NCBI GenBank assembly: GCA_020072565.1
Contig: JAIQGI010000002.1
Span: forward strand, 62,001 to 126,000
Source: Terriglobia bacterium
Lineage (GTDB): Bacteria; Acidobacteriota; UBA6911
Length of the DNA: 64,000 nucleotides
Reading direction: 5' to 3'
In this document: positions 6,196-43,792 of the stretch, piece by piece
Layout: every line of letters begins with the position of its first letter
How positions within the stretch are numbered: position 1 is the stretch's first letter
Notes under the pieces: model-generated
What the model was told of the DNA's origin: nothing
The model's input: the letters and a program-made list of their open reading frames with translations, nothing else
The model's database searches: none
Program-made: the position numbers and the translations under genes

Positions 6196-7728
6196 TCACA
6201 GCAGCCGCCAGCGCCTGTGCTCGCGCTCCAGAAGGAAGTCGGCTTCCGGCGGCCCCCACGACCCGGAGGCATAGGTCGGAATTACGGCGGGGCGGTGTGA
6301 CGACCAGACATCGAGAAAAGGCTGGACCAGTGACCAGGCCGCCTCAACCGAATCCGCGCGGTTGAACAGGGTCGGATCACCGAGCATGCAATCGAGCAGC
6401 AACCGTTCGTAAGCGCTCGCCAAATGAATGCCGAAGGTGCTGCCGTAGCGGAAATCCATATTCACCGGCTGGATGTTCACGGATTGTCCCGGCAGCTTGG
6501 CGACAAACTTGAGAGTGATTCCCTCATTGGGTTGGATGCGCAGAGCAAGCACGTTCGCACCCAAGTCCGCGACCGGGGACTGGCGGAAAATGAAGTGAGG
6601 AGTCCGCCGGAACAGGATTGCGATCTCGGTGACTTGCTTGGCGAGGTTTTTCCCGGTCCGCACGTAGAAGGGCACATCCGCCCAGCGCCAGTTGTCGATG
6701 GTAAAACGGATCGCGGCAAAGGTCTCGGTGCCCGACTGGGGGGACACATTCGTCTCTTCCTGGTATCCGGCGGTCGGCTTGCCGGCGATGAATCCAGGTC
6801 CGTACTGCGCGCGCACCGATACTTTCTCCACCTCGTCGGCTGATGTCGGATGGATGGATCGCAACACCTTCGCCTTCTCATCCCGGACAGTATTGGGGGC
6901 AAAATCGGGCGGCGGCTCCATGGCGACGAGCGTCAGCAGCTGCATGACATGGTTTTGGATCATGTCGCGCAACGCGCCGGCCTCCTCATAGTAGCTTCCC
7001 CGTGTGCCCACGCCGATGTTCTCTGCGGCCGTGATCTGCACGCTGTCCACATACTGGCGGTTCCAGATGGGTTCGAATATGCCGTTCGCAAAGCGAAGCA
7101 CGAGGATGTTCTGCACCGTTTCCTTGCCCAGGTAATGGTCGATGCGATATGCCTGGTCTTCCCGAAAGTGGGCGACCACCACTTTGTTGAGCGCCAGAGC
7201 CGATTCGAGGTCACGACCGAAAGGCTTCTCTATGATAATGCGCGTCCACGCGCCGCCGTCGGTGTGTTCGCGCGCCAGTCCGGCAGCTCCCAGGTTTTGA
7301 ATGATGCCCACATAATCACTGGGGGCCGTGGCGAGGTAGTAGATCCGGTTGCCGCCGGTGCCGCGCTGGACATCATACTCGGCCAGCGCTTTCTTGATCT
7401 CTTGGTAGGTTTCGGGACCATGGTAATCGGCCGAGAGGTAGTGGATGCCGCGCGCAAAAGCCTCCCACGCCGACGCTTCCAAGGGGGCACCGGACTCGGC
7501 GAGCGCCTGGCGTAGCTTCTCGCGGTACTGGTCATCGCCGAGCGGAGAGCGGGAAAGCGCCAGGATCGTGAAGCCGCCCGGAATCGCACGTCCCTGCGAG
7601 AGATTGTAGAGGGCGGGGACAAGCTTGCGCCTGGTGAGATCGCCGGATCCGCCGAAGATGACCATCACGCACGGTTCAGGACTGCGGCTCATGCGCCCGC
7701 CGTGCCTTAGGGGATTCTCATCGTCCAC
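6196..7728 (-). CDS. zwf: Glucose-6-phosphate 1-dehydrogenase
   Basis: 510 aa. It oxidises glucose 6-phosphate to the lactone with NADP+ or NAD+. The N-terminal dinucleotide motif IFGGSGDLTRRKL, EKPFGRDLESA, the active-site RIDHYLGKETVQNIL and the late VRTGKNLAKQ are all intact. A GTG at 7728 is the chosen start because GAGAGG lies eight bases upstream; TTG at 7734 and ATG at 7692 are alternatives. First gene of the zwf-opcA-pgl operon. Confidence 0.95.
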   Translation of the reverse strand: MDDENPLRHGGRMSRSPEPCVMVIFGGSGDLTRRKLVPALYNLSQGRAIPGGFTILALSRSPLGDDQYREKLRQALAESGAPLEASAWEAFARGIHYLSADYHGPETYQEIKKALAEYDVQRGTGGNRIYYLATAPSDYVGIIQNLGAAGLAREHTDGGAWTRIIIEKPFGRDLESALALNKVVVAHFREDQAYRIDHYLGKETVQNILVLRFANGIFEPIWNRQYVDSVQITAAENIGVGTRGSYYEEAGALRDMIQNHVMQLLTLVAMEPPPDFAPNTVRDEKAKVLRSIHPTSADEVEKVSVRAQYGPGFIAGKPTAGYQEETNVSPQSGTETFAAIRFTIDNWRWADVPFYVRTGKNLAKQVTEIAILFRRTPHFIFRQSPVADLGANVLALRIQPNEGITLKFVAKLPGQSVNIQPVNMDFRYGSTFGIHLASAYERLLLDCMLGDPTLFNRADSVEAAWSLVQPFLDVWSSHRPAVIPTYASGSWGPPEADFLLEREHRRWRLL

Positions 7729-29688: not shown

Positions 29689-30228
29689 TCAGGTATCTCC
29701 ATCTAACTCCACATTCCAATAGAAATAATCACGCCAGGACTCAGGGGCGCTCTTGAAGCCGATGGTGATGCGCAGCATGTTAGGAACCCAGTCGGGTTCT
29801 TTCGGACGCCGGATCAACCGCATACCTGCCTCTTCGGGGGTTTGCCCCCCCTTCCGATGGTTGCACTCGAAGCAGCAGGTGACAATATTATCCCAGGTCT
29901 TGCTTCCCCCTTTGACGACAGGGATGACATGATCAAATGTCAGGTCTTCCGTGGAGCACTTTGTGCCGCAATATTGGCAAGTGTGCAAATCCCTGGCGTA
30001 GATATTGGCCCTGCTGAACTTGATGTGCTGGAAGCGCTTTCGCATCCGGACGTATTTCAGGAGACGGAGCACGCTCGGCATCTTGATCGTGAAGCTTATG
30101 CTGCGGATTTCACGGTCGTACTCGGCCAATACCTCCACCTTGCCCTGGAAGAGCAAGGTGATGGCCCGCTTCCAGGGGATGATGTTGAGGGGCTCATAGC
30201 TGGCATTGAGAACGAGTGTATGTTCCAT
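29689..30228 (-). CDS. HNH endonuclease family protein
   Basis: 179 aa. An N-terminal segment VLNASYEPLNIIPWKRAITLLFQGKVEVL precedes an HNH fold: CQYCGTKC, then LTFDHVIPVVKGGSKTWDNIVTCCFECNHRKGG. Two CxxC pairs bind structural zinc and DHVIP holds the catalytic His. This is the small stand-alone type common in bacteria of many phyla, with presumed nicking or DNA processing role; it is not obviously part of a restriction system or intron here. Start is ATG 28 bases inside a TTG-extended frame boundary, at 30228. Confidence 0.85.
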   Translation of the reverse strand: MEHTLVLNASYEPLNIIPWKRAITLLFQGKVEVLAEYDREIRSISFTIKMPSVLRLLKYVRMRKRFQHIKFSRANIYARDLHTCQYCGTKCSTEDLTFDHVIPVVKGGSKTWDNIVTCCFECNHRKGGQTPEEAGMRLIRRPKEPDWVPNMLRITIGFKSAPESWRDYFYWNVELDGDT

Positions 30229-30625
30229 CAATCATTCCCGGCTGTCAAAAGCTGGCTCGGCGCAAACGGCAGTACCGGGAGGGAATACGTCGAGAGCAAC
30301 CAATCTCAGGTCGAGTGGCAATAACATGGCTCGGACTCATTTCTCGACACCCGGCAGTTACTCCATTCCCAAGGTACACGGCGCTAAGCGAGTGTTATTG
30401 AAATATAACGAATTGCAGCAGTCAAGCACTTTTGGGCTGAAGAGATGGACGGCAATTCTCCGGGACTTGCCGCGGATTCGTGCATGTCGCATTTGGGTTG
30501 GAGTTCTATGGGCGGGATTGGTCTCCTTTCTGATATTCTTATGTGTTCAATCAGTTTACAAATAAGTTTATCAGATTGCATTGTGCGGGGCGACCTTTTG
30601 GCGCCCTGGCGAGGGGTTCGAATCG
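30229..30625. other. 397-base divergent intergenic region
   Basis: Contains the 5' regions of the HNH gene (leftward) and the NamZ-like gene (rightward). A rightward open frame 30326-30565 would encode 79 aa ending in a hydrophobic helix (IWVGVLWAGLVSFLIFL). It has no ribosome site or recognisable relative, so I do not call it a gene. A locally A/T-rich stretch at 30395-30420 could hold promoters. Nothing else is seen. Confidence 0.45.
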
Positions 30626-31798: not shown

Positions 31799-32004
31799 CC
31801 GCCGATAGTGTCGGAAATGGAGTGAAAGGATGTCAATTTCCTAACTTCTCGGTCAGGAAGGAACCTGGTGATAGGATACGCTTTTCCTGGATTGCGCGGT
31901 CACGATATCAGTGGCGGAAGCATCCGGTCTGTGAAACGCTCTATTGTCGGGCGACGGAATCGGGAGACATGTATCCCGTCACCACCTTTTAGTAGGAGAT
32001 GTCG

Positions 32005-32577
32005 ATGGCTGTGAATAGAGAAATGTCATGGGAGTTGCTTACGGAGTGTACCAAGAGCGACAGTTTGCGCAAACACGCGCTGGCCGTCGAAACCTTGATG
32101 CGGGCCTATGCGAAGAAATATGGCGAAGACCCCGAAGTCTGGGGAATCGTGGGATTGCTTCATGACTTTGACTATGAGATGTACCCCACCATGCCCGACC
32201 ATCCCAACAAGGGGGCTGAGATTCTCCGGCAGCGCGGATATCCGGAAGAGACTATCTACGCCATTTCTTCACATGTCGGCGAGCTGAAGCTGCCCCGCCA
32301 CAACCTTCTGTGCAAGGCCATCTATGCCTGCGACGAGCTGGCGGGGTTTCTTGTGGCCAGCGCACTGGTGCGTCCGGGGAAGTCGATAATAGGCATGGAG
32401 GCCAGGTCGGTGCGCAAGAAACTCAAGGACAAGGCGTTCGCGCGCGCGGTCAATCGCGACGACATCTATAAAGGAGCCGAGGAGCTCGGGGTGGATCTGG
32501 ATGAGCACATCACATTCTGCATTCGAGCCATGGAAGAAAATGCCGCGATGCTGGGACTCGATGGCGCAGCTCAATGA
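32005..32577 (+). CDS. HD-domain phosphohydrolase
   Basis: 190 aa. The HD metal site is visible: RKHALAVETLMRAYAK (first His), GLLHDFDYEMYPTMPDHP (HD pair) and ISSHVGELKL (later His), then an Asp in YACDELAGF. The size and order fit small HDIG-type hydrolases acting on nucleotides or related phosphates; the substrate is unknown. The start is decided by AGGAG: it abuts an upstream ATG at 31999 but is six bases from the ATG at 32005. The next gene, 167 bases on, handles deoxynucleotides, which hints at a nucleotide role. Confidence 0.8.
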   Translation: MAVNREMSWELLTECTKSDSLRKHALAVETLMRAYAKKYGEDPEVWGIVGLLHDFDYEMYPTMPDHPNKGAEILRQRGYPEETIYAISSHVGELKLPRHNLLCKAIYACDELAGFLVASALVRPGKSIIGMEARSVRKKLKDKAFARAVNRDDIYKGAEELGVDLDEHITFCIRAMEENAAMLGLDGAAQ

Positions 32578-32744
32578 CGGATGACGGCTGATCCGGAAAT
32601 AGCAATGAAAAGCAGATGCTCGACGCACAGGGCGCAGAAAGATCTGGATTGAGGCTCGAATTTGTTTCGTGTCCTCTGGCGTTCTTGCGGTGAGCTGTTG
32701 GGGCTGGCGTTGGTTTGCGGGGCTGTTCCGGGATGAGAGGGGAT

Positions 32745-33743
32745 ATGATCATTGGGTTGACGGGCAAGAACGGGGCCGGCAAGACCGAAGTCTGCCAGTA
32801 TCTGGTGAGCCGGGGATTCGAGTACCATTCGCTTTCCGACGAGATTCGTGACGAGGCGAGGAAACGCGGCGAGGAGATCACCCGCGAAGTGCTGATCGAG
32901 GTCGGAAACGAGCTTCGCAGCCGGTTTGGTGCGTGCGCGCTGGCAGAGCGCATCCTGGTTCAGCTGGGTCATGACCGCAATCACGTCATCGACTCCATCC
33001 GCAATCCGACGGAGGTGGAGGTCCTGAGGCGGCGCAAAGGCTTCATGCTGATGGCGGTCGATGCCAATCAGGTTGTCAGGTTCGAACGCAGCTGTTTGCG
33101 GGGCAGGGAGGGAGCGGCGCTGACGTTCGAGCAGTTCGTTCAGGAAGAGGAAAGGGAACTGCAGAACGCGGATCCGGCAAACCAGCAACTGCTTGCGACC
33201 CGGCGTCTGGCCGACGTCGTGGTCAACAATGACGGGACTGTCGAGGAACTTCACCACAAGCTGGACGAGATTTTGCCGGCGTTGATGAGCAACTTCGATC
33301 GCCCTGACTGGGATGAGTACTTCCTGAGCATCGCTAAGGTTGTGGCCTCGCGCAGCAACTGCATCAAGCGCAAGGTGGCCGCGCTCATCGTCCGGGATCG
33401 GCGAGTGATTTCAACCGGTTACAATGGCACGCCGCGCGGCGCCAAGAACTGCAATGAGGGCGGTTGTCCCAGGTGCAACAGCATGGCCCAGAGCGGCACG
33501 TCGCTGGAGGAGTGTTTGTGCTGCCATGGTGAGGAAAACGCCATCACGCAAGCGGCGTATCACGGAACCAGCCTGAAGGGGGCGACGCTCTACACCACAT
33601 TTGCCCCGTGTCTGCTCTGCACAAAAATGATCATCAACAGCGGTATCGTTGAGGTTATCTACAATCAGGATTATCCCCTCAACGAGCGTGCCATGGCCCT
33701 GTTACGCGAATGCGGCGTAATGCTGCGCAAACACCGCGTGTGA
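32745..33743 (+). CDS. Fusion of a P-loop kinase-like domain and deoxycytidylate deaminase
   Basis: 332 aa. Residues 1-180 form a CoaE/adenylate-kinase-like P-loop domain opening IIGLTGKNGAGKTEVCQYL. Residues about 185-332 form a zinc-dependent dCMP deaminase: KRKVAALIVRDRRVISTGYNGTP, CCHGEENAI (His and Glu of the catalytic site) and FAPCLLCTKMI (PCxxC zinc ligands). Extra Cys in GGCPRCNS and ECLCCH recall the second zinc site of phage and yeast dCMP deaminases. The same two-domain order occurs in the AvcD antiphage deaminases and in yeast Dcd1, so either housekeeping dUMP supply or defence is possible. ATG 32745 starts exactly at the first beta strand; ATG 32733 is an alternative. Confidence 0.85.
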   Translation: MIIGLTGKNGAGKTEVCQYLVSRGFEYHSLSDEIRDEARKRGEEITREVLIEVGNELRSRFGACALAERILVQLGHDRNHVIDSIRNPTEVEVLRRRKGFMLMAVDANQVVRFERSCLRGREGAALTFEQFVQEEERELQNADPANQQLLATRRLADVVVNNDGTVEELHHKLDEILPALMSNFDRPDWDEYFLSIAKVVASRSNCIKRKVAALIVRDRRVISTGYNGTPRGAKNCNEGGCPRCNSMAQSGTSLEECLCCHGEENAITQAAYHGTSLKGATLYTTFAPCLLCTKMIINSGIVEVIYNQDYPLNERAMALLRECGVMLRKHRV

Positions 33744-33986: not shown

Positions 33987-34901
33987 CTACTCGTTGTACT
34001 GCAGAGCCTTCTGCTTGAATGCATCCATGGTGAGCCTGCCGGCTTTGTAGTCCGTGATCCACGATTTCTGCACCGAGACAACATGGGTGCCTTCGTAACC
34101 GTCGATCGTGATCACGATGCTGACGTACTCACTGGGTTTCACCGTGGTCAGCGAGTCTCCATAATTTGCCAGGGTCTCGATGAGACTCGCCTTCATTTTT
34201 CCGATATCCTCAATGACCTTGCTTCGTCTGGCTTCCAACTCTTTGCGGTCCTTTTCGACCTGCTGCTGAAATTGGGCGAGGCTCGCTTGGCGTGTCAACT
34301 CCGCCGCTTTCATTGTCTCCATGCTCTTGGCGTATTGCGCCTCTACTTCCTTGAGGCGCTGCTCGAGAGCCTTGACCTGCGCCGCATAAGCATCCATAGC
34401 TTGCTTGTAAGCCTGCTCCCCGCTCTGGGCAATTGGCGGAGGAGGCGGTTGGGGTAGGGCTGGAACCGTCGCTGGTTTTGGGGTTGGTGCCAGCGCTGGC
34501 GTGGGAGGAAACGGACTGCTCATGATGCCGGAGCCAGTGCCTGATCCCAGGCCTGATCCGAGGGCGCCCCAGAACCCTGAGGAGCCGGTCACGCGCAGGG
34601 AGGAGGAGGGAACTACGAACACGGCTCCCTGACCATATAAATAGAAAGCGGAGATACGGGGGTAGAAGCTATAGCCAAGCTGTGGGTTTACGGAAACGCG
34701 GCCTCGCCCGGAGGCAGTTGCTGTCACACCCTGATCCGGGCTTGCCTGTGCGACATAGCCGAGCGTAGTGCTCAGGATGCCCTTCATGATTTCGAGTTCC
34801 TGTGCGGATTTTTGCGTATCAAACAGTTCCTTGTTTCCTTGGGCCCAGGAGAGTGTTCCCAGGCAGGCAAGGATCAAAAAAGAGGCGCTGTACTTTTTCA
34901 T
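33987..34901 (-). CDS. Exported protein with Pro-rich linker and coiled coil (sigma operon)
   Basis: 304 aa, not recognised. A signal peptide (FLILACLGTLSWA) is followed by a Gly/Ser-rich region near residues 100-125. Next comes a Pro/Ala linker (TPALAPTPKPATVPALPQ) and a long charged coiled coil about 160-245 (KQAMDAYAAQVKALEQRLKE onward). A small C-terminal domain ends with YEGTHVVSVQKSWITDYKAG. GGAGAG lies five bases before the ATG, which overlaps the anti-sigma stop as ATGA. As third gene of the sigma/anti-sigma operon it may be an envelope component whose state is monitored, or a product of the regulon. Confidence 0.7.
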   Translation of the reverse strand: MKKYSASFLILACLGTLSWAQGNKELFDTQKSAQELEIMKGILSTTLGYVAQASPDQGVTATASGRGRVSVNPQLGYSFYPRISAFYLYGQGAVFVVPSSSLRVTGSSGFWGALGSGLGSGTGSGIMSSPFPPTPALAPTPKPATVPALPQPPPPPIAQSGEQAYKQAMDAYAAQVKALEQRLKEVEAQYAKSMETMKAAELTRQASLAQFQQQVEKDRKELEARRSKVIEDIGKMKASLIETLANYGDSLTTVKPSEYVSIVITIDGYEGTHVVSVQKSWITDYKAGRLTMDAFKQKALQYNE

Positions 34902-35695
34902 TTTTGCTCTCCGGTTGGTTTAAGGCTCAAGTTGGGAAACTGGAGCAACATGTCCAGGATTGCGTCGGTCCGCCTGGCGCTGACCTCACCATCCGCAGCA
35001 ACTCTGTCGACGCGCGCACTGATCGTTTGCATGTCCTCCTGGTGTTGCAGCGACACGGCCCGATAGACGGTAGCAATCGACTCTTTCGTGCCTGTCCTGA
35101 TTTCGTCGGTGGTCAGCGCCATCCGGTTAGTGAGGCGTGATTCCAGACCGGTCAACGCTGCCACGAGCTGGATCTGCTGCTGCTGCGTCAACTCCGTGCG
35201 CGAGTTGGCTATCTCAGACCGCATGTCTTTGATCCATCCCAGGGCGGCCTCCCGGTTCCTGTCCTCGGCAGTTTTCAGGATGTCGGCTTTGAGGGCAATG
35301 GCATCAATGGCGGCCGTCGCACTGCCGCGCCCGAAACTCACAGCCCAGCCGGCTTGATCGGATCGGATCTGGAGCCCGGCTATGGCTGCGATAGCGAAAA
35401 ACACGAACAATCCGGTCACGCATGCCATGGCCACCTGCCAGCGGGGCATCAATTGACGAAACAGCTTCCAGGGATTAGCCCCGCGCTCCTGGGGATAGAC
35501 AAAGAAATGACGGGGAACGGGCTCATCGCCGGTCGACTGCAACAAACGCAGTGTTTCCGCGTAGCGCCCGTATTCCCCTTTGCAAGGCGGGCACGCGGCC
35601 AGATGGAGATCCAGGGCCTGCTGTTCTTCGACAGTCAGATCTCCGACGAGGGATCGCGGGATATGTTTCTGGTGCTCGCTGCATTCCGAAGTCAT
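34898..35695 (-). CDS. Membrane anti-sigma factor with zinc-type N-terminal motif
   Basis: 265 aa. The N-terminal LHLAACPPCKGEYGRY contains the HxxxCxxC signature of zinc anti-sigma domains that grip ECF sigma factors. A transmembrane helix around residues 92-112 (VAMACVTGLFVFFAIAAIAGL) anchors it. The outer part is a helical Gln/Ala-rich domain with repeated heptad-like segments (RSEIANSRTELTQQQQIQLV). It lies 19 bases after the sigma gene. Regulated proteolysis or a signal through the outer domain probably releases sigma. Confidence 0.87.
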   Translation of the reverse strand: MTSECSEHQKHIPRSLVGDLTVEEQQALDLHLAACPPCKGEYGRYAETLRLLQSTGDEPVPRHFFVYPQERGANPWKLFRQLMPRWQVAMACVTGLFVFFAIAAIAGLQIRSDQAGWAVSFGRGSATAAIDAIALKADILKTAEDRNREAALGWIKDMRSEIANSRTELTQQQQIQLVAALTGLESRLTNRMALTTDEIRTGTKESIATVYRAVSLQHQEDMQTISARVDRVAADGEVSARRTDAILDMLLQFPNLSLKPTGEQK

Positions 35696-35714
35696 GTTCT
35701 TGTCCTCCAGCCAG

Positions 35715-36365
35715 TCAGGCTGCGGCGCCCAGCCTGACTTTCAATATCTCCAAGCCGGCGTAGAGCCGCGATTTGATTGTGCTCAGGGGGACCTGGAGGA
35801 TGGCTGCGATATCCTCGAAGGTCAGTTCCTGGAAAAACTTGAGCTCGATGACCGCCCGTTGGTCCGGCGGCAGGAACGCGAGCGCCGTGCGCACCCGGCT
35901 CCGATTCTCCGCGCGCAAAAGTTCGCCGTCCTGAGTGCCCGTGATGCTCAGCTCGGCCGGCCGGGCCCCTTGCTCGTCGCTGTCGAGTGAAAAATGAGTT
36001 CCCTGAGGCCGCCGCCTGGCGCGCGAGACACAGTGGTTTACCGCGATCCGGTAAATCCAGGTAGAGAACTTCGAGTCTTGACGGAAGCGGCGGATGTTCC
36101 TGAAGGCTGCCAGGAAAACCTCCTGGGTCGCTTCGGCCGCTTCGTCTCGATCCTGAAGCATTCTCAGGGCCACGTTGTAAACCGTTCTCTCCCATTTCAA
36201 CACCAGACGATTGAAGGCCAGGGTGTCGCCGCCTTGGCTTGCTGCCACCCAGGCAGTCTCCTGGACATGGTCGGGGGAGGCGGGCAAGGATCTGTCCTGA
36301 GCCCAAACGGAACCGAGCTCCCCATTGACCCGCCCTGTCTGCCCCCTCGCCTGTTCTCGTTCCAT
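35715..36365 (-). CDS. ECF-type RNA polymerase sigma factor
   Basis: 216 aa. Region 2 reads LAFNRLVLKWERTVYNVALRML then EVFLAAFRNIRRFRQDSKFSTWIYRIAVNHC. Region 4 reads ALAFLPPDQRAVIELKFFQELTFEDIAAILQVPLSTIKSRLYAGLE. Regions 1 and 3 are absent, as in ECF sigmas. The N-terminal 40 residues look disordered and a later start is possible. First gene of the sigma, anti-sigma, coiled-coil operon. Its own target promoter, if autoregulated, would lie in 36366-36480, where I see no clear AAC/CGTC pair. Confidence 0.92.
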   Translation of the reverse strand: MEREQARGQTGRVNGELGSVWAQDRSLPASPDHVQETAWVAASQGGDTLAFNRLVLKWERTVYNVALRMLQDRDEAAEATQEVFLAAFRNIRRFRQDSKFSTWIYRIAVNHCVSRARRRPQGTHFSLDSDEQGARPAELSITGTQDGELLRAENRSRVRTALAFLPPDQRAVIELKFFQELTFEDIAAILQVPLSTIKSRLYAGLEILKVRLGAAA

Positions 36366-37091: not shown

Positions 37092-38384
37092 ATGCAGGCT
37101 GTTTACGTCGAAAAGATAGCTGCGCATGAGGGCAGCGAGGTGACGCTGCGCGGCTGGGTTTACAACAAACGCAGCAGCGGAAAGCTGCAGTTCATCCTGC
37201 TGCGCGATGGGACGGGGATCATTCAGTGTGTCGCTTTCAGAGGCAACTTCACGCCCGGGCAGTTTGAGGCGCTCGACAAGCTCACCCAGGAGTCGAGCCT
37301 GGAGATTCACGGCACGGTACGCCGGGACGAGCGCGCGCCAGGTGGATATGAGATTGACATTACGGGATTCAAAATTCATCAGGTTGCGGAAAGCTATCCT
37401 ATAACGCCCAAGGAGCACGGCACAGCCTTTCTGATGGAAAACCGACACCTCTGGCTGCGCAGCACGCGACAGCATGCCATTCTCAAGGTCCGTCATGAGA
37501 TCATCAAAGCCACGCGTGACTATTTCGATGACCAGGGATTTACGCTGGTCGACACGCCGATATTTACCCCGAACGCATGTGAAGGAACCACAACTCTGTT
37601 TGAGACGGAGTACTTTGATGAAAAAGCCTACCTCACGCAGAGCGGCCAGCTCTACAACGAGGCCACGGCCGCCTCGTTCGGCAAGGTCTACTGCTTCGGG
37701 CCGACCTTCCGCGCCGAAAAATCCAAGACGCGGCGTCACCTGATGGAGTTCTGGATGGTCGAGCCGGAAGTTGCCTTTGCGGAGCTCGAAGACACCATGG
37801 AACTCGCCGAAGGACTGATCTGCTTCATTGTCGAGCGAGTTCTGTCGAAGCGCAGGAACGAGCTCGAAACACTTGAGCGCGACATCTCGCGTCTGGCGGC
37901 GATTTCACGGCCGTTTCCCAGGCTCTCCTATGATGATGCGCTGCAGAGGCTGAAAGCCGCCGGTTCCGAAATCGAGTGGGGCGGCGACTTCGGCGGGACC
38001 GATGAAACGGTCCTTTCGGAACAGTTTCCGGCTCCAGTGATGGTGCATCGCTATCCGTCAAAGGTGAAGGCCTTCTATATGCAGCCCGATCCACAACGTC
38101 CGGAAGTGGCTTTGTGCGTCGATGTACTCGCGCCGGAGGGGTATGGGGAGATCATCGGTGGCGGCCAGCGCATTCACGATCATGACCTGCTCCTCGGCAG
38201 GATCCGGGAGCACCAACTTCCTGTGGAAGCCTTTCAATGGTATCTCGACCTGCGCAAGTTCGGGAGCGTTCCTCACGCGGGATTCGGCATGGGCATCGAG
38301 CGCGCGGTGGCGTGGATCTGCAAGCTGGACCACCTGCGCGAGACCATCGCTTTTCCGCGTATGCTCTACAAGATCTATCCCTGA
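37092..38384 (+). CDS. asnS: Asparaginyl-tRNA synthetase
   Basis: 430 aa class IIb synthetase. An N-terminal OB fold ([31 protein letters not shown]) binds the tRNA anticodon. Class II motif 2 lies around [25 protein letters not shown], and motif 3 is [15 protein letters not shown] near the end. A start 12 bases after the CYTH stop suggests co-transcription. Full length. Confidence 0.95.
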
Positions 38385-42973: not shown

Positions 42974-43156
42974 GCGATCCCTCCTGCCGGCCGAGGCAGC
43001 TTATATCATGGAATCTGGTGACGGGACACCCATTTTCCAGCCTCGCAGGCGCCAGCATGGCCGGCGATACTGCAAAGGGGGTGTTCTGCATCGAATTTGC
43101 TCTTTTCTTCGGTTCAGGATTTGGCGGTCTCGCGGCCTGTGTTAAGATACACGGCT

Positions 43157-43792
43157 ATGTTGCAGGTCGGTCTGACAGGGAACATTGCATCGGGAAAGAG
43201 CCACGCGTCGAGCGTTTTCGCCGAATTGGGTGCTCACGTGATCGACGCTGATGTGATTGCCCACGAACTGTTTTCGCCTGGAACTGCCACCTACGCCAAA
43301 GTCGTGCAGGCTTTCGGGAACCGGATTCTTGCTCCCGACGGTACGATTAATCGGAAGGTTCTCGGCGATATCGTTTTCCGTCAGACGGAACAACGGTTGC
43401 TGCTGAATGCCCTCGTCCATCCGGATGTGCTGACGGAAGTCATGCGCCGGACATTCGAACTGGAGAACAAGGGTTTTGACGGCATTGTCATTGTCGATGC
43501 CGCGCTGATGGTGGAGTCGGGCTTCTACAAAATGCAGGATCGCCTTATTGTTGTCACCTGCGACCCGGCGCTCCAACTGGCGCGCGTCATGAATCGTTGC
43601 GGGGTGAGCGCCGAGGACGCCAGGCTTCGCATTACGGCGCAGATGCCGGTGGCGGAAAAGCTCAGGCTGGCCGACTACACCATCGATACGTCCGGCACTT
43701 ATGCCAGCACCAGGGAGCAGATCGAGCGGATCTATCGCGAACTGATACTGCAGGAGCGGGTGCGCCGGGATGCGGACGCGCAGGGTGGCTGA
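43157..43792 (+). CDS. coaE: Dephospho-CoA kinase
   Basis: 211 aa. It phosphorylates dephospho-CoA in the last CoA step. P-loop LQVGLTGNIASGKSHASSVF, the conserved GAHVIDADVIAHELFSPGTATYAKVVQAFG, the LVHPDVL block and LIVVTCDPALQLARVMNR lid region are all present. The start at 43157 matches the family start; an upstream in-frame start at 43097 is not favoured. Expressed alone rightward. Confidence 0.93.
   Translation: MLQVGLTGNIASGKSHASSVFAELGAHVIDADVIAHELFSPGTATYAKVVQAFGNRILAPDGTINRKVLGDIVFRQTEQRLLLNALVHPDVLTEVMRRTFELENKGFDGIVIVDAALMVESGFYKMQDRLIVVTCDPALQLARVMNRCGVSAEDARLRITAQMPVAEKLRLADYTIDTSGTYASTREQIERIYRELILQERVRRDADAQGG

Follow-up and report, generated by a model that had tools for sequence, protein, structure and literature searches.

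Two readings have been offered for the gene studied here, in which a P-loop domain is joined to a zinc-dependent deaminase. The first-pass annotation regarded it, together with an adjacent HD-domain gene, either as a source of dUMP or as a nucleotide-depleting defence unit of the AvcD kind. The question is therefore what such a fusion does for its host and, in particular, whether the P-loop half is a working kinase. It has been addressed in a window of 64,000 nucleotides, the whole stretch of DNA that was analysed, and by comparison with 60 genomes of Acidobacteriota and with more distant carriers. The features are collected in Table 1. The fusion has the appearance of an enzyme of core metabolism, in Acidobacteria as in other microbes, and not of a phage defence.

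The fusion protein and its surroundings

The ORF listing and the translation give one ORF of 332 aa for the fusion. Both this gene and the HD gene reported next to it are present, and Pfam agrees with the two assignments. Pfam places AAA_18 at residues 3-122 (9.8e-10) and dCMP_cyt_deam_1 at residues 188-306 (4.3e-24) of the fusion. The HGE and PCxxC motifs that had been assigned to the C-terminal deaminase are intact as H261-G-E263 and P288-C-L-L-C292. In an alignment of 23 relatives the key residues of these motifs and the Walker A lysine K13 are invariant, and the HxE and PCxxC zinc site is invariant in 45 relatives.

Table 1. Positions and supporting evidence for the features of the window.
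Feature	Position	Strand	Evidence
HD-domain protein, HDIG family; neighbour only, outside any conserved unit	32005..32577	+	Pfam HD 1.3e-10, HDIG 1.8e-13
Spacer, proposed site of an antitoxin RNA	32578..32744	.	Fold z, Rfam, conservation: nothing for an RNA
P-loop NMP-kinase-like/dCMP deaminase fusion protein	32745..33743	+	ORF, translation, Pfam, 49/60 relatives matched
N-terminal kinase domain, residues 1-181, AdkA/UPF0200-like fold, proposed (d)CMP kinase	32745..33287	+	Fold match to 3lw7; exclusion with Cmk
Walker A motif GKNGAGKT, residues 7-14	32763..32786	+	GxxxxGK in 41/41 relatives; K13 invariant
C-terminal zinc dCMP deaminase domain, residues 185-332	33297..33740	+	Pfam, phmmer
GYNG, residues 225-228, dCTP/dTTP allosteric-site motif of dCMP deaminases	33417..33428	+	In 40/41 relatives
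HGE catalytic motif, residues 261-263	33525..33533	+	H261, E263 invariant
PCLLC zinc motif, residues 288-292	33606..33620	+	P288, C289, C292 invariant
Dedicated dephospho-CoA kinase CoaE	43097..43792	+	PF01121 2.1e-52

The deaminase half resembles dCMP deaminases of the DCTD/ComEB type (PDB 2hvw, 1vq2, 2w4l) in its HxE, PCxxC and GYNG motifs and in its fold, and phmmer matched it to the S. mutans dCMP deaminase 2hvv at 3e-21. In dCMP deaminases, dCTP and dTTP act allosterically at the motif G(Y/W)N(A/G) (PMC12088426), and this motif of DCTD is present in the fusion as GYNG. The known dCMP deaminases are single-domain proteins with protomers of about 20 kDa in hexamers (PMC12088426), whereas the present one is fused to a kinase. 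Stand-alone dCMP deaminases of the same phylum show up to 44-50% identity to the deaminase half. The ComEB equivalog TIGR02571 gave 112.9 bits and its cut-off of 219.45 was not reached; judged by sequence, the fusion deaminase is related to ComEB and is not ComEB itself.

Within the family, synteny and Pfam reveal the gene string topA-dprA-(mqnA)-HNH-namZ-fusion-CYTH-asnS, the asnS call being a reading of the ORF at 37092. In a wider set of 65 proteins the close same-strand neighbours are LytB/IspH, CYTH, IF-2, polyprenyl synthetase and similar. Conserved linkage to thymidylate synthesis genes, named in the first-pass annotation as contrary evidence to its proposal, was not found: none of 81 neighbourhoods, extending at most 10 kb to each side, contained a match to thyA, thyX or dcd. 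The small HNH protein at 29689-30231 (-) of the window has an HNH part that is partly IscB-like (NF040563, 49.5 bits vs a cut-off of 175), and synteny of its gene with dprA and namZ is seen across the family. At 33987-36365 (-), genes for a sigma factor, a zf-HC2 anti-sigma protein and a coiled-coil protein separate the fusion from CYTH, unlike in several relatives of the family, in which CYTH directly follows the fusion.

The HD ORF spans 31999-32577 (+) and encodes 192 aa from its first start. The start at 32005 is the better one, with AGGAG a few bases upstream and an alignment with the ATG of the same-genus relative. The suggestion that the HD protein is a functional partner of the fusion found no support. 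Only in this genus does the gene sit between namZ and the fusion on the same strand; it is divergent in one relative (G002) and 2-4 kb off in G025 and in G026, while most genomes carry it on a different contig from the fusion, and the co-occurrence of HD and kinase domain was not beyond chance (p 0.79). The HD gene is a chance neighbour of the fusion.

Relation to AvcD and inheritance

AvcD deaminates dCTP and dCMP and is restrained by the RNA AvcI (PMC10511110). The AvcD-like domain order noticed earlier was borne out: AvcD/DcdV (NF041025, PADLOC dCTPase) likewise has a P-loop domain at the N-terminus and a zinc deaminase after it, and is homologous to the fusion over both domains, the profile comparison of the kinase parts giving E 3.8e-21. 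This common order, along with a match of the fusion to the PADLOC dCTPase model at 4e-56, speaks for an AvcD-type anti-phage enzyme which, with or without the HD protein, would deplete deoxycytidine nucleotides on infection. The scores, however, speak against it: the PADLOC model gives 189 bits for the fusion vs 463-588 for AvcD proteins and 120 for an ordinary dCMP deaminase, while NF041025 gives 136.8 bits vs a cut-off of 400 bits, which none of the 60 relatives passed.

Comparison of the motifs is also against defence. GxxxxGK was found in 41/41 fusion relatives vs 0/12 AvcD and GYNG in 40/41 vs 0/11, and the spacing from GxN to HxE is 36 residues in the fusion vs 71-90 in AvcD. The 12 AvcD proteins examined have 468-627 aa and neither the Walker A lysine nor GYNG, whereas both are kept in the 332 residues of the fusion. 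Their genes are on plasmids, several of them beside transposases or recombinases, whereas the fusion belongs to a housekeeping gene string. As GYNG and Walker A are kept, the deaminase half retains the housekeeping regulatory site and the kinase half the lysine that was lost in AvcD. An AvcI-like RNA, which had been placed in the spacer upstream of the fusion, found no support in the sequence either: the spacer folds no better than shuffled sequence (z -0.79 and -0.72 for the two strands), matches no Rfam family at gathering score and differs in length and sequence in the same-genus relative.

The deaminase tree places the fusions in one group (99/97) and AvcD in another (89/94). The phylogeny called for in the first-pass annotation thus sets the fusion clade apart from AvcD, while a single clade of AvcD and fusion deaminases was not rejected (AU p 0.41). 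AvcD looks like a distant relative with a decayed kinase motif.

The distribution of the fusion is that of a core gene. The fusion query matched 49 of the 60 relatives at E 0.001; within the same family and class, most of the matches span the full length, with 56-77% identity and in single copy. Among the class genomes that are at least 90% complete, 21/25 have the fusion as a single-copy gene of full or almost full length; the other four contain the kinase part only (one), a distant deaminase only (one) or nothing (two). At least 536 relatives were found among named genomes, which are mostly MAGs, many of them from other phyla and from DPANN archaea. The best 80 of these, with 55-77% identity over nearly the full length, come from Acidobacteria, Deltaproteobacteria, Omnitrophota, Planctomycetes, Elusimicrobia, Nitrospinae, Tectomicrobia, Micrarchaeota and Diapherotrites. 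The fusion is a vertically inherited core gene, unlike a patchy defence gene. Because of this inheritance, and because of kinase and allosteric motifs that AvcD lacks, the defence reading is not supported and we regard it as highly improbable; of the two options considered at first, the supply of dUMP is the better one. The PADLOC dCTPase model nevertheless matches 45/45 members of the fusion family tested, so that false defence calls are likely in environmental genomes, surveys of which may count this core enzyme as defence.

The kinase domain and the distribution of Cmk

To our knowledge, the cytidylate kinase Cmk is otherwise near-universal. PF02224 was detected in 14/14 control genomes, over the cut-off in 13/14, while the genome under study, the fusion included, gave no match at E 0.001. 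For the comparison across genomes Cmk was scored as PF02224 over its length, the one CMP-kinase family covered. The own genome, together with its 25 nearest relatives, gave the first indication of a mutual exclusion of kinase domain and Cmk; for the remaining 34 of the 60 genomes the exclusion was a prediction, and it held. Full-length Cmk was found in 0/38 kinase-positive genomes (kinase fused or alone) vs 15/22 kinase-negative ones (Fisher p 3.2e-9), and the exclusion persists on 42 good-quality genomes (p 1.4e-9) and on 28 families (4e-7); these p-values come from 60 genomes of Acidobacteriota only and, the genomes being related, overstate their independence. Counted by family, 15 have the kinase only, 12 have Cmk only and none has both. 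Neither was found in seven genomes (G004, G005, G024, G027, G029, G033 and G048), which are 65-96% complete.

Genomes with one half of the fusion are informative here. The five that carry the kinase only as a stand-alone gene (G018, G039, G040, G054 and G055) are all without Cmk, and the 10 in which the deaminase is present and the kinase absent all have Cmk, so the exclusion tracks the kinase and not the deaminase. The presence of a deaminase as such showed no association with Cmk (p 0.15). Within the class, the sole Cmk-bearing family (f6) is without the kinase; G019 alone in the class is Cmk-positive, and its Cmk scores above the TIGR00017 cut-off. The weak partial PF02224 matches in kinase-positive genomes, as far as examined, were adenylate kinases or MiaA by sequence reading. 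Since the kinase half occurs only in genomes without Cmk, it probably does the job of Cmk and stands in for it, the pattern being a correlation. A literature search for a known Cmk replacement returned none.

The context of cmk in the Cmk-bearing relatives is rluB-hisC-cmk-rpsA, with names read from the sequences. Only rluB of these genes was met near the fusion, at one locus, so there is no sign that the fusion occupies the former cmk site in Acidobacteria; its position next to lytB/ispH in some Omnitrophota is no more than suggestive of this. A pseudouridine-synthase-like sequence lies beside each of two of the five stand-alone kinase genes (L133:5076-5972 in G054 and L134 near 6528-6995 in G039), and a rluB-like gene is near cmk in the Cmk-bearing relatives.

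The predicted model of the fusion has pLDDT mostly 78-94 in the kinase part. The closest fold is that of the UPF0200/AdkA-like protein SSO1041 of Sulfolobus (PDB 3lw7), with a VIA-align Z of 21.7 and 2.0 Å over 166 residues; the best matches have Z of 21.7 and 21.4, and the next different protein 16.7. The two share the NMP-kinase fold at 25% identity, whereas SSO1041 is a stand-alone protein, crystallised with AMP, and the kinase of the fusion is linked to a deaminase. The NCBIfam model PRK08356 gave 75.4 bits for the fusion, below its cut-off of 189 bits. Since PF02224 is matched in a Sulfolobus control genome as well, SSO1041 need not be a CMP kinase. By profile, the kinase of the fusion is slightly nearer to Cmk (E 3.7e-9) than to Adk or CoaE; Cmk (TIGR00017, PF02224) is nevertheless another family, and the similarity is at the level of P-loop kinases only.

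The AMP-bound state of this closest fold, and Cmk statistics uncorrected for the relatedness of genomes, speak for a kinase whose substrate is dTMP, AMP or dephospho-CoA, or dNMPs over a broad range, with the Cmk exclusion as a by-product of clade history. Separate genes for such kinases, however, exist: Tmk is present in 25 of 26 genomes, Adk is a separate gene in 3/3 kinase-positive genomes examined, and a role as CoaE was discarded for the fusion kinase because of the dedicated CoaE within the window. Cmk is the NMP kinase found missing and, in the class, the one family that has it is the one without the kinase. We therefore consider another substrate quite unlikely.

Somewhat less unlikely, though still doubtful, is that the P-loop domain has no kinase role and only binds nucleotides to regulate or assemble a housekeeping deaminase, some other enzyme having replaced Cmk. 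AvcD does keep a degenerate P-loop domain on such a deaminase, and most relatives of the fusion have Gly directly behind the Walker A lysine. Against a purely regulatory domain stand the invariance of the Walker A lysine and of several arginines in the alignment of relatives, the fact that the exclusion of Cmk follows the kinase, and the stand-alone copies in five genomes of the phylum, which are placed among the fusions in the kinase tree and indicate that the kinase domain is kept without the deaminase.

A proposed branch-point enzyme in pyrimidine metabolism

Our preferred reading, which we regard as fairly probable, is a bifunctional housekeeping enzyme, (d)CMP kinase and dCMP deaminase in one, which replaces Cmk and supplies dUMP. 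In the proposed mechanism dCMP is a branch point: a CMP kinase takes it back to dCDP and dCTP, and deamination leads to dUMP and dTMP. The N-terminal domain of NMP-kinase fold, in place of the missing Cmk, would convert CMP and dCMP to CDP and dCDP by phosphotransfer. The C-terminal zinc domain would deaminate dCMP and so provide thymidylate synthase with dUMP, dCTP and dTTP probably acting as its switch at GYNG. NMP kinases are reversible, so the kinase could also feed the adjacent deaminase; in reverse, dCDP from ribonucleotide reductase would become dCMP for the adjoining domain, and the two activities would be coupled.

The own genome contains Tmk, Dcd, ThyA and CoaE, and no dUTPase was detected in it. 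A direct route from dCMP to dUMP would thus be useful, Dcd notwithstanding, although with Dcd present the deaminase may not be the sole source of dUMP.

On a wider scale, we are evenly divided between belief and doubt about the following extension. Much of Acidobacteriota, and probably the other carrier phyla and DPANN archaea, would have lost Cmk, with the fusion of a hitherto unrecognised UPF0200-type kinase and a dCMP deaminase as its replacement and as a single enzyme at the dCMP branch point, while the N-terminal domain of AvcD would be a decayed CMP kinase of shared ancestry that now serves as a sensor. If true, this would explain an unnoticed gap, that of Cmk, in how a large bacterial phylum handles its nucleotides, would give a function to a UPF0200-like kinase family and would suggest, in a form that can be tested, where the puzzling P-loop domain of AvcD comes from.

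A further observation concerns thymidylate synthase in a sister genus of the same family. Most of its genomes have neither canonical ThyA nor ThyX but carry a ThyA-like ORF, as at L173:1498-2394 (G026) and L172:1858-2736 (-) (G003). The ORF of G026 scored 129.5 bits with the methanogen-type thymidylate synthase TIGR03283, the cut-off being 174.55, and the ThyA-like ORF of this genus may represent another enzyme replacement in the same pathway.
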